Shown here: positions 1,008 through 4,466 of the stretch, in pieces | How positions within the stretch are numbered: the stretch's first letter is position 1 | Layout of the letters: each line of letters starts with the position of its first letter | Origin: an uncultured Sphingomonadaceae bacterium | GTDB taxonomy: Bacteria; Pseudomonadota; Alphaproteobacteria; Sphingomonadales; Sphingomonadaceae | Assembly (NCBI GenBank): GCA_947493215.1 | Contig: CANLQE010000003.1 | Span: 124,001-188,000 of the forward strand | Direction: 5' to 3' | DNA length: 64,000 bases | The notes under the pieces: model-generated | Seen by the model: only the letters and a program-made list of their open reading frames with translations | Database searches by the model: none | Told to the model about the DNA's origin: nothing | Program-made: the position numbers and the translations under genes

Positions 1008-2417
1008 CTATTTCACACCTGCGGCGGTGACCGTTTGGCCCATTTTCAAACCAATGTTGAACTTGGCGAGATAGGCATTAGGTGCTTTGCCATCATAGGT
1101 AATGCCGTCGATGAACCCTGATTGTTCAGCCTTGAAGCCATCTGTCTCGGGCAGGCTATCGGCTGGAATGACGCCATCGGCAGCTAGTTTTGTGGCAGCC
1201 GCCAAATAAAGGTCTGGGCGATAGACTGCCTTGGCTGTGTCAAAATACCAATCGTCTGATTTATCTTCCGCTATCTGACCCCAGCGGCGCATCTGGGTCA
1301 AATACCAGATAGCATCGGAGTAAAATGGATAGCCCGCATAATCACGGAAGAAGATGTTAAAGTCAGGCGCGTCTCTTGTATCCCCGGCTTCAAAGGTGAA
1401 TTTCCCGGTCATGGACGCGCCAATCACTGCTTCGTCCGCGCCAACATAATTGGGTCTAGAGAGGATTTTTACCGCTTCTGCCCGGTTTGCGCCATTGTCC
1501 ACATCCAGCCATTGCTGGGCCTTGATAACGGCCCGAAGCATCGCGGCTGTTGTCGCCGGATATTTTTCGGCAAAGTCTTTGCGCAGGCCCAGGACTTTCT
1601 CGGGGTTTTTACTCCAAATTTCTTCGTCAGTAATGACCGGAACACCGATTTTCTTTTGCACCGCCGCCTGATTCCAAGGCTCACCAACGCAATAACCATC
1701 AATGGTACCTGCCTCTAACGTTGCCGGCATTTGTGGCGGCGGCGTAACGGAAAGATTGGCTTCAGCAGATATCATGCTCGACACATCACCGGGCGAATAA
1801 TAACCAGGATTTACCCCGCCGGCGGCCAACCAATAACGCAGCTCATAATTATGCGTCGAGACAGGGAAGACCATTCCCATGTTAAAAGGCTTTCCCTGCT
1901 CATTATATTTAGCAATGACAGGTTTCAAAGCAGATGCGCTGATCGGGTGCTTTGGCTTACCATCCGCATTTTTTGGCAAATCCGGTTCGATCATGTCCCA
2001 AACTTTGTTGGACAGCGTGATCGCATTGCCATTGAGATCAAGGGACAAGGGTGCAATCAAATCAGCTTTGGTTCCATAACCAATGGTCGCTGCCAGTGGC
2101 TGTCCAGCCAACATATGTGCGCCATCAAGCTGCCCGCCAATCACGCCATCAAGCAAAACTTTCCAGTTAGCCTGTGGTTCCAAAGTAACGTTCAATCCTT
2201 CTTCCTGAAAGAAGCCTTTCTCTTTCGCAATTGCGAGAGGAGCCATATCGGTCAGTTTAATAAAGCCCAATTTGAGCACTGGTTTCTCAATTGCCCCATC
2301 GACAGTTGCTGGCTGGACGGCGCCGTCTTGTGCCGTTTCGCTTGGCGAACCACATGCCGTCAGCAATGCACTTGCAGCGATAGATAAAAGAAGGTTACGG
2401 CGACTGGTCTTGTACAT
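1008..2417 (-). CDS. nrtA: NrtA/CmpA-family nitrate-binding lipoprotein
   Basis: Solute-binding component of a nitrate ABC importer. The 469-residue product starts with a signal that contains SRRNLLLS (Tat-like twin arginine) and ends in the lipobox LTAC, so it should be a lipid-anchored, possibly Tat-exported, periplasmic protein. The mature part has the typical NrtA pattern: LKLGFIKLTDMAPLAIAKEKG near residues 48-68, LDGVIGGQLDGAHMLAGQP, and DGYCVGEPWNQ near the second-lobe contact. The length fits NrtA rather than the shorter cytoplasmic NasS encoded upstream. It is followed 26 bases later by the permease gene. Expression is probably set by the leader terminator at 2470-2514. CmpA (bicarbonate) is a relative but does not fit the nasS-nasT context. 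Confidence 0.9.
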   Translation of the reverse strand: MYKTSRRNLLLSIAASALLTACGSPSETAQDGAVQPATVDGAIEKPVLKLGFIKLTDMAPLAIAKEKGFFQEEGLNVTLEPQANWKVLLDGVIGGQLDGAHMLAGQPLAATIGYGTKADLIAPLSLDLNGNAITLSNKVWDMIEPDLPKNADGKPKHPISASALKPVIAKYNEQGKPFNMGMVFPVSTHNYELRYWLAAGGVNPGYYSPGDVSSMISAEANLSVTPPPQMPATLEAGTIDGYCVGEPWNQAAVQKKIGVPVITDEEIWSKNPEKVLGLRKDFAEKYPATTAAMLRAVIKAQQWLDVDNGANRAEAVKILSRPNYVGADEAVIGASMTGKFTFEAGDTRDAPDFNIFFRDYAGYPFYSDAIWYLTQMRRWGQIAEDKSDDWYFDTAKAVYRPDLYLAAATKLAADGVIPADSLPETDGFKAEQSGFIDGITYDGKAPNAYLAKFNIGLKMGQTVTAAGVK

Positions 2418-2469: not shown

Positions 2470-2514
2470 AAAAAAACCGCCTCAACTGCTGACTGATATG
2501 GTCAGGTTGGGCGG
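2470..2514 (-). terminator. Leader intrinsic terminator of nrtA, candidate NasT antitermination target
   Basis: Read on the minus strand, CCGCC-CAAC-CTGAC / CATATCA / GTCAG-CA-GTTG-A-GGCGG is followed at once by seven T residues. This is a textbook intrinsic terminator with a long stem broken by small bulges. It sits after nasS and only about 50 bases before the nrtA start codon, so it would stop nitrate-transport transcription unless bypassed. An ANTAR protein (NasT) is encoded directly upstream, and ANTAR proteins of this class bind leader hairpins and block terminator folding. Confidence 0.85.
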
Positions 2515-2525
2515 CATCATTACCG
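2512..2525 (-). promoter_or_regulatory. Hexaloop hairpin overlapping the terminator arm (candidate ANTAR P2 hairpin)
   Basis: On the transcript this reads CGGU-AAUGAU-GCCG: a four-pair stem (one G-U pair) closing a six-base loop with A at position 1 and G at position 4. That is the known signature of ANTAR-binding hexaloops. The 3' arm shares three bases (2512-2514) with the 5' arm of the terminator, so the two structures exclude each other. A second hairpin, CGAU-CUUAAA-AUCG (2529-2542), lies three bases upstream in the P1 position, but its loop lacks A1/G4. GGGC-AAAGCU-GCCC (2591-2604) has the A1/G4 signature but is about 65 bases away. Confidence 0.65.
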
Positions 2526-2676
2526 GTTCGATTTTAAGATCGTTTCGCTCACCAAGCCCGTCATTGGACAGTGTCGCGATAAATATTGCGGGGCAGCTTT
2601 GCCCTACACACTTATATATTCATGATTCTCGATTCCGTGCAAGTAGTTTTTTGCAGCGCAACATAATTAGAGGGTC

Positions 2677-3888
2677 TTACGGCAAATTTGTTAGATATTC
2701 CGGTAACTTGTCTGGATCGAAAATGCGATCATCAAAGAAAGGATCAGAACTCAAAGTTAACTGTCCTTGAGTCGTTCCTACGGCCAATGGCCCTTCTATC
2801 CCGCCTTCAATCTTTGAATTTGCAGATGGCATAGGAGTATCAATGCCATCAAGGGCGCAGCGATAAACGTTAGACCGGAATATCGCCTCCACCTTCAATT
2901 GATCTTCATGGCTATAGGTCATATCGTCCCAGCGAAGCATCTGTGAATAAAGCCAACTCGCCTGACTTTTCCAAGGAAAATTTGCAGCCTCATGATATTG
3001 AAACATGAAATCGGGAATATGGCTGGTTTCACTGTTCTTGCTGAGCAAAATCCGGTCGGAGATTGCCCTGCGTATCATTTCGACCGACCCGTCGAGATAT
3101 TCCGGCCGCGCCAAAATTGCACTGTTCGTTTCCCAGTTTTCCGGTTCGACAAAACGAGCAGCCGTTTCATGGAGCGCCCGGATTAGTCGTTCGACAATAT
3201 CGCGCTTTTCGTCCAAATTCTCGGCGAGCATGGCGAGGACTTTTTCCACACCGCGCTGCCAGATTTGCGCGGTCACCAGCACAATCCGTCCGCTGCCGCG
3301 CTCAACCGCAACACTATTCCACGGTTCGCCGACACAGATTGCATCAATCTCACCATTATCGAGCGCATCTGCCGCAAATGGTGGAGAAATGGTCACGATA
3401 TCGATGTCTTTATCTGGATCAATCCCGCACCCGGCAAGCCAATAGCGCAGCATATAATTATGACTGGAATAGCGATGGACGACACCAAATTTTAGGCGTC
3501 GCCCTGTTTTTTTATGAGATGAAATGACTTCAGTAAGTCGTGCGCCAGCATCAACGGGTGCGGCAAGTTTGCCATCCGGTACAATCTCGTCAGCCAGCTC
3601 ATTTGACATGGTAAGGGCGTTCCCATTGAGGCCCAGAACGAAAGGAACCGCCATCGCTTTGGCAGGACGTCCGCGACCTAAGGTATTGGCGATCGTTAAT
3701 GGGGCCAGCATATGGGCTACATCCGTCTGGCCATAGAGCAGCCGGTCATTAACCGCCGCCCAGCTAATATCTTTTGTGAACCGTAAATCTAGACCGTGCT
3801 CTTCAGCGATGCCGAGTTCTTGAGCCAGAATCGGTAGCGCAGCATCAACGAGAGGGAGAAAGCCGACCGAGAGGAGGTCCTTGGTCAT
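2677..3888 (-). CDS. nasS: NasS-like cytoplasmic nitrate sensor (NrtA-fold, no signal peptide)
   Basis: A 403-residue protein of the NrtA/CmpA substrate-binding family with no signal peptide or lipobox: it begins MTKDLLSVGFLPLVDAALPI. It keeps the ligand-binding signatures DVAHMLAPLTIANTLG and DAICVGEPWNSVAVERG. A cytoplasmic NrtA-like protein next to an ANTAR protein is the NasS arrangement, in which nitrate-free NasS holds NasT inactive and nitrate binding releases it. The start codon overlaps the nasT stop by four bases (ATGA at 3885-3888), so the two are translationally coupled. The function is inferred from family and context; the nitrate-binding residues were not individually checked. 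Confidence 0.87.
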   Translation of the reverse strand: MTKDLLSVGFLPLVDAALPILAQELGIAEEHGLDLRFTKDISWAAVNDRLLYGQTDVAHMLAPLTIANTLGRGRPAKAMAVPFVLGLNGNALTMSNELADEIVPDGKLAAPVDAGARLTEVISSHKKTGRRLKFGVVHRYSSHNYMLRYWLAGCGIDPDKDIDIVTISPPFAADALDNGEIDAICVGEPWNSVAVERGSGRIVLVTAQIWQRGVEKVLAMLAENLDEKRDIVERLIRALHETAARFVEPENWETNSAILARPEYLDGSVEMIRRAISDRILLSKNSETSHIPDFMFQYHEAANFPWKSQASWLYSQMLRWDDMTYSHEDQLKVEAIFRSNVYRCALDGIDTPMPSANSKIEGGIEGPLAVGTTQGQLTLSSDPFFDDRIFDPDKLPEYLTNLP

Positions 3889-4466
3889 TTCACATCTCCC
3901 ATAAGCTGGTCTGCCGTCACAATTGCTTCTGCAATTTCGGTGATCCGCTTGTTATTGTTCATCGCATGACTTCGTAACAATTTATGTGCTTCGGGCTCGG
4001 TCATGTTTCGTTTCTCAACTAATATGAGCTTGGCTTTGTCGATGATCGAACGGTCCGCTAGGGCATCACGCGCCTGCTGCAGCTCAGCCTGCAAATGAGA
4101 AAAAGCATTGAAACGCCGGACGGCGAGATCAAGGATGGGCTTCAGCCGATGTTGCGACATACCATCAACAATATAGGCGGACACACCGGCATCCACAGCA
4201 GCGGCTATCGAATCTTCATCCGACTGATCGACAAACATCGCCACCGGTTTCGCAACCGCTCGGCTGACGGCAAAATATTCCTCCAGCATATCACGCGACG
4301 GATTGCCGAGATCGACCAGAACGACATCCGGTTCGATTTTTGCAATGGCTTGAACCATTCCCTTACGTTCGGAAATAATGAAAACGTCACGCTCGCCGAC
4401 CTCGGCAAGGCCTTGCTCAATTATAGCCGCGCGTGCGGCGTTTTCATCGATAACGGCTATGCGCAC
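3885..4466 (-). CDS. nasT: NasT-like ANTAR-domain antitermination regulator
   Basis: A 193-residue RNA-binding antiterminator. Residues 1-120 form a receiver-like domain (MRIAVIDENAARAAIIEQGL; VVLVDLGNPSRDMLEEYF, with Asp in the acceptor region). The C-terminal ANTAR domain follows at about 128-185, with AKLILVEKRNMTEPEAHKLL and RSHAMNNNKRITEIAEAI. In NasT-NasS systems this protein binds tandem hairpins in nitrate-assimilation leaders and prevents termination. Here it is first in the operon nasT-nasS-(leader)-nrtA-ntrB, and the leader contains a matching terminator. An exact 25-base sequence 123-147 bases upstream of its start recurs upstream of cphB. Confidence 0.9.
   Translation of the reverse strand: MRIAVIDENAARAAIIEQGLAEVGERDVFIISERKGMVQAIAKIEPDVVLVDLGNPSRDMLEEYFAVSRAVAKPVAMFVDQSDEDSIAAAVDAGVSAYIVDGMSQHRLKPILDLAVRRFNAFSHLQAELQQARDALADRSIIDKAKLILVEKRNMTEPEAHKLLRSHAMNNNKRITEIAEAIVTADQLMGDVK

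Follow-up and report, generated by a model that had tools for sequence, protein, structure and literature searches.

The nitrate transport genes of this sphingomonad lie just downstream of genes for a nitrate sensor, NasS, and a putative RNA-binding regulator, NasT, with a leader in between. A preliminary description of the window (the whole stretch of 64,000 nucleotides (nt) analyzed here) proposed a NasT antitermination switch and saw its novelty in an odd partner for hairpin P2. The switch itself is well supported by the adjacent NasS and NasT genes, the overlap of P2 with a terminator, covariation and a covariance-model match. It is very likely a NasT switch, with predicted NasT binding and a predicted response to nitrate, and we put the probability that the region is an ANTAR-type leader controlled by NasT through transcription antitermination at about 0.88. 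The odd partner was a misreading, since two covariance models (R2 and R3) both place an ordinary P1. The departure from the known ANTAR layout is the long spacing between P1 and P2, together with a third hexaloop hairpin, P0.

Genes and RNA elements of the locus

All features described here are on the minus strand. The nasT gene (3885..4466) encodes a receiver-like and ANTAR RNA-binding protein of 193 amino acids, whose ANTAR domain scores 69.1 bits in Pfam (cut-off 27.3) and whose receiver part scores 24.6 bits against Response_reg, under the cut-off of 30.2 for that family. Its phmmer matches among solved structures are Rv1626 (1s8n), EutV (6wsh), NasR (4akk) and AmiR (1qo0). The start of nasS (2677..3888) overlaps the end of nasT; it encodes an NrtA-like nitrate sensor of 403 amino acids (Pfam NMT1_2, E = 1.1e-60) with no evident signal peptide as judged by eye. 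The locus thus has the NasS-NasT two-component gene arrangement, in which a receiver-like ANTAR protein is encoded next to an NrtA-like one that, by eye, lacks a signal peptide. After a gap of 259 nt comes nrtA (1008..2417), which encodes a nitrate-binding protein (Pfam NMT1_2, E = 3.6e-95) with a lipoprotein-like start (by eye) and is the first gene 3' of the switch. Further downstream, translations read by eye point to ABC transporter, porin, nitrite reductase, nitrate reductase and uroporphyrinogen methyltransferase-like genes, the usual nitrate assimilation cluster. The genome yielded a single ANTAR gene, which lies close upstream of the leader.

At the 5' end of the leader region, a TTGC-N3-GCAA palindrome (2651..2661) stands just 5' of a putative promoter. 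Such a palindrome occurs just upstream of the putative -35 element in 72 of 74 nonredundant leaders, compared with 169 of 1,480 mononucleotide-shuffled segments; it is taken to be a conserved operator, possibly serving nitrogen control. The putative sigma-70-type promoter (2613..2643) was recognized by eye (-35 CTTGCA at 2643-2638, -10 near 2619-2613) and is absent from the output of a simple consensus scanner; transcription would start near 2608. TGGCAC-N-TGC-like sequences were seen by eye downstream of nasS in other alphaproteobacteria (loci L116-L121, L124, L131 and L134), and we take them to resemble sigma-54 promoters. Sphingomonad leaders seem to be of the sigma-70 type and these other leaders sigma-54-like, perhaps reflecting a promoter switch.

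The transcribed leader contains, from its 5' end, P0 (2591..2604; GGGC-AAAGCU-GCCC, loop 2600-2595), P1 (2556..2569; GUCC-AAUGAC-GGGC), a linker hairpin (2529..2542; CGAU-CUUAAA-AUCG) and the P2 antiterminator hairpin (2512..2525; CGGU-AAUGAU-GCCG), followed by an intrinsic terminator (2470..2514) with its stem at 2514-2477 and a 7-U tract at 2476-2470. P0, P1 and P2 have hexaloops with A at the first and G at the fourth position (A1/G4), closed by C:G pairs in P0 and P1 and by U:G in P2; a C:G closing pair is what NasR preferred in SELEX, according to the accessible part of that study (PMC7496416). The linker hairpin has no A1/G4 loop and a U:A closing pair. Positions 2514-2512 belong both to P2 and to the 5' arm of the terminator, so that the two structures are mutually exclusive. 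The terminator fold is strong (-20.6 kcal/mol, z = -5.6, equaled by 0 of 200 shuffles), and it is not among the results of the same consensus scanner. The preliminary description was right about both this terminator and the AAUGAU hairpin overlapping its 5' arm.

The leader as a whole folds moderately better than its shuffles (z = -2.15), and the fold of the 99-nt stretch from P0 to P2 is not special (z = -1.05). The hexaloops stand out: with stems of at least 4 bp including at least 3 G-C pairs and loops within 85 nt, the nasS-nrtA leader is the sole cluster of three A1/G4 hexaloop hairpins on either strand of the window. When the 99-nt stretch was shuffled 20,000 times with dinucleotides preserved, no shuffle had three A1/G4 hexaloops and nine had two. 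In Rfam, the window had no match at the gathering score, and region 2418-2690 had none at E values up to 10.

Conservation and covariation in related leaders

NasS matches were found in 9 of 32 genomes of the genus (own included), in 41 of 119 of the family at E values up to 0.001, of which the best 30 loci were used, and in 40 of 289 of the class at E values up to 1e-60; the match set includes NrtA-like paralogues and one weak hit. A sample of 110 leaders was assembled from the 30 loci of the family, the window's own among them, and from the best 80 of 346 named loci. In 97 of the 110, nasS is followed by a P2 that overlaps a terminator, and 74 remain once near-identical leaders are removed; the 13 leaders without a detected P2, which include the truncated contig L110 and may include P2 hairpins with other letters, were dropped, biasing the remaining rows toward the motif. 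The rows of alignments A2 and A3 were likewise picked for the presence of hairpins, so that the motif is favored there.

Within about 100 nt 5' of P2 in the 74 loci, 67 of 105 hexaloop hairpins are of the A1/G4 type, compared with 23 of 493 in nasS 3' ends. Picking the strongest hexaloop within 60 nt, with no condition on its sequence, gave an A1/G4 loop in 60 of 74 leaders; 65 had R1/G4. With P2 included, the number of R1/G4 hexaloops that lie within 110 nt and have a C:G or U:G closing pair is at least three in 16 of the 74 leaders and two in 54, with P2 alone in 4; of 592 segments of nasS coding sequence, each 110 nt long, 5 reach three or more.

The covariance search of the leader and its relatives that had been suggested bears out the switch. 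Model R2 was built from 46 leaders with two hairpins, all of them from genera other than that of the window. It has a single match in the 64-kb window, at 2469-2597, with an E value of 4.7e-9 that is rough owing to short calibration, as are all R2 and R3 values, and it places P1 at 2569-2556. Applied to relatives, R2 found 22 of 22 loci (18 distinct, 4 repeats), the best E value per locus ranging from 8.1e-13 to 1.6e-4. Model R1, which includes the window itself, matched the leader in its own genome at E = 4.4e-14 (next match 0.42) and yielded no convincing second element there. Across the order, 48 of 296 genomes have an R1 match at E values up to 0.01, with filters losing weak ones. Two or more such leaders occur in 17 of these 48 genomes (G111, G098, G607 and others), compared with one in the genome of the window; the paired leaders are mostly about 4-10 kb apart, with 1.6 kb in G607 and a position on two contigs in G652.

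Covariation was assessed in a three-hairpin alignment of 17 leaders, window included, that were chosen for having P0. Paired cells amount to 97.4%, and to at most 49.0% after sliding by 1-3 columns; 31 cells show two-sided changes, compared with a shuffled mean of 7.8. Two-sided changes occur in three of seven pairs of P0, three of six of P1 and four of 11 of the terminator, in which 96.8% of cells are paired. No two-sided covariation was found in P2 among the 17 leaders; its three pairs hardly vary, and its arm doubles as a terminator arm. The P2 closing pair is U:G in the window and C:G in the other 16 of the 17. Unaided, RNAalifold recovered P1 and the terminator from the 46 two-hairpin leaders (two-sided changes in 8 of 16 pairs) and P0, P1 and the terminator from the 17 (10 of 27 pairs). 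The covariation expected of such a switch is therefore present in P0, P1 and the terminator and absent from the P2 stem. One definition of ANTAR-target RNAs asks for two hairpins of at least 3 bp with A1/G4 hexaloops and a variable linker, in the accessible part of its source (PMC3369931). The leader has these in P1 (AAUGAC) and P2 (AAUGAU), and also in P0 (AAAGCU), along with the P2/terminator overlap; covariation comes from P0, P1 and the terminator, with none from P2 alone.

The third hairpin and the partner of P2

The A1/G4 loop at 2595-2600 was previously taken for a possible misplaced P1. The loop is real (P0 folds with -8.0 kcal/mol, and 3 of 200 shuffles do as well), and it belongs to the additional hairpin P0. 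Among 25 named loci of Sphingomonas, Sphingopyxis and Sphingosinicella (from the best 80 of 346), P2 was detected in 23, and P0 accompanies it in 22, with A1 in 21 and G1 in one (L061); L106 is the locus without it. Leaders of Novosphingobium and Croceicoccus mostly consist of P1 and P2 with no P0.

It is quite conceivable, if not the account we favor, that P0 is a mere 5'-end hairpin whose A1/G4 letters are a coincidence of this genome, and that P1-P2 does the work. P0 is absent from most Novosphingobium-type leaders, and in eight relatives from the same genus, two of which share an identical sequence here, the hairpin at the P0 place has, by eye, a loop of another size or no G4. Against this, the window hairpin combines A1, G4 and a C:G closing pair, and P0 covaries in relatives. 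Furthermore, model R3, which represents the P0-P1 part and was trained on 16 leaders other than that of the window, matches the window at 2552-2609 with 29.2 bits and a rough E value of 2.6e-6 (next match 2.4), whereas the congeners score 19.3 (L003), 16.7 (L151), 16.1 (L034) and 13.6 bits (L148), and L032, L033, L147 and L152 score under 13.6 bits or have nothing at the leader. Given these lower scores and the P0-place hairpins without A1/G4, it seems that a P0 has survived in the window and been lost or altered in other members of the genus.

A second alternative, which we regard as very improbable, follows the preliminary description in having P2 partnered by the CUUAAA hairpin (2542-2529) or by loop 2600-2595, a proper P1 being missing. 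The CUUAAA hairpin exists, 3 nt from P2, a spacing that by eye also occurs in some other alphaproteobacteria, and the crude pick of the strongest hexaloop of any letters selects it in the window. Against this, it is weak (-1.8 kcal/mol, z = 0.4, with 37 of 200 shuffles as good), has neither A1 nor G4, and is closed by U:A. Moreover, a normal P1 had been overlooked at 2569-2556, where both R2 and R3 place it, and it is kept in relatives with compensatory changes. Finally, an ordinary nasS/nrtA boundary terminator free of NasT control and with chance hexaloops is scarcely credible, common as strong intergenic terminators are, in view of the three A1/G4 hexaloops seen in none of the 20,000 shuffles, the covariation and the P2/terminator that follows nasS in 97 of the 110 sampled leaders.

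The CUUAAA hairpin is probably linker structure and no NasT site. In other alphaproteobacteria (L116, L117, L118, L123, L124 and L127), a hairpin about 2-9 nt before P2 frequently has A1 or G1 and G4, as read mostly by eye; statements on these bacteria rest on such reading because the P2 finder detected 3 of 26 class-level loci. Since the CUUAAA hairpin sits at this proximal place without the A1/G4 letters, it may, as a conjecture, be a decayed proximal hairpin. In L120 and L121, at least four A1/G4 hexaloops were marked per leader downstream of nasS, which suggests still longer hexaloop arrays.

The spacing between P1 and P2 is 30 nt in the window. Of 63 leaders with an A1/G4 P1, 61 have a spacing of 25-43 nt and the other two have 9 and 19 nt; an A1/G4 P1 was not found in 11 of 74 leaders. 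This count took the best-scoring A1/G4 hairpin and passed over nearer, weaker ones such as GUAG-AACGAU-CUAC. In congeners L003, L034, L148 and L151, a G:C-closed A1/G4 hairpin, GUAG-AACGAW-CUAC, lies 9 nt before P2; GUAG-AACGAU-CUAC was set aside as a NasT site, having a G:C closure and being broken in three leaders (by eye).

Folding of the linker so as to bring P1 and P2 close was also considered. The unpaired external linker in minimum-free-energy folds averages 6.2 nt, and 6.1 nt with shuffled flanks, a measure that is uninformative because the two means are nearly the same. The flanks themselves form more stable folds than their shuffled versions do (mean z = -1.08, below 0 in 53 of 61). 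In Sphingomonas-type leaders, the linker hairpin has z below -1.5 in 7 of 14 and often leaves 13 nt unpaired; a further leader lacked an A1/G4 P1. A folded linker between P1 and P2 is offered as a suggestion only.

Proposed mechanism and relation to known systems

In the NasT switch as proposed, NasT would be held by NasS without nitrate, and the leader transcript would stop at 2476-2470. Nitrate would free NasT, as reported for Paracoccus (PMC3795266, accessible part), and the freed protein would be recruited co-transcriptionally to the A1/G4 hexaloops of P0 and P1. NasT would then stabilize P2, the 3' arm of which forms the base of the 5' arm of the terminator, and the polymerase would read into nrtA and the nitrate assimilation genes. 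P2 alone would switch; P0, possibly a second recruitment hairpin, and P1 could remain folded in both states.

The closest parallel is the nasA leader of Paracoccus denitrificans, also an alphaproteobacterium, with the same order of nasT, nasS, leader and transport gene and with a NasT-binding leader that has hairpins and termination, binding being predicted here (PMC3795266, PMC5424462). In the accessible parts of these reports, nitrate dissociates NasS-NasT, and NasT, which is oligomeric once released, binds the nasA leader (PMC3795266), in which hairpin I is required for induction (PMC5424462). Two hairpins, HI and HII, are described there and no arrangement with three hexaloops; the comparison made here is by description. 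The Klebsiella nasF leader likewise serves a nitrate assimilation operon and has A1/G4 P1 and P2 hairpins with C:G below the loop, but NasR is a one-component NIT-ANTAR protein and the excerpts available describe two hairpins (PMC7496416, PMC3369936).

The Enterococcus faecalis eut leaders share the A1/G4 hexaloops, the P2-terminator overlap and a REC-ANTAR protein, EutV (PMC3369931, PMC8934654, both seen in part). Their linkers are 5-12 nt, linkers of 3 or 14 nt drastically cut induction (PMC3369931), and 20 added linker nt abolished EutV antitermination in vitro (PMC8934654); here the linker is 30 nt and P0 is added. Because this linker falls outside about 5-12 nt, the leader is not filed as EutV-type. 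An actinobacterial survey, in the text available, kept linkers of 2-25 nt (PMC8164766). EutV dimerizes on phosphorylation according to the excerpts available, whereas NasT here has a receiver-like domain that by eye lacks the KP-motif lysine, and a binding protein as its sensor.

According to the accessible text, the structure of EutV with RNA suggests that a dimer engages its hexaloops singly, with P1 serving for recruitment and P2 for antitermination (PMC8934654). The sphingomonad leaders would suit such one-at-a-time reading more easily than simultaneous clamping. The 30-nt P1-P2 spacing in the window, above the range tolerated by EutV, counts against the NasT switch as a whole. A more tentative and rather doubtful extension is that NasT reads P0, P1 and P2 as a hexaloop array, and not as a close pair, and that the released leader is perhaps a NasT decoy. 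If so, oligomeric NasT, as in Paracoccus, would load first at P0 at the 5' end, and the EutV spacing limits would therefore not apply. The terminated transcript can retain folded P0 and P1, so the leader, about 135-140 nt long once released, could also serve as an EutX-like decoy and exert negative feedback. The EutX/Rli55 small RNA is similar in having an extra single hexaloop besides the dual motif, but is a trans-acting decoy RNA in the part of its description available (PMC8934654). Among the matches listed in the open PMC literature, no paper described a sphingomonad NasT leader or a three-hexaloop ANTAR leader; three of them (PMC3596284, PMC9281055 and PMC8636895) mention sphingomonads together with NasT or with the same letters.

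The nitrate leaders of the sphingomonad type break the short-linker rule, and searches that assume short linkers may therefore have overlooked such ANTAR targets. Whether ANTAR loops are read as a pair or one after another would be testable in these naturally spaced leaders, which in one branch have a third loop.
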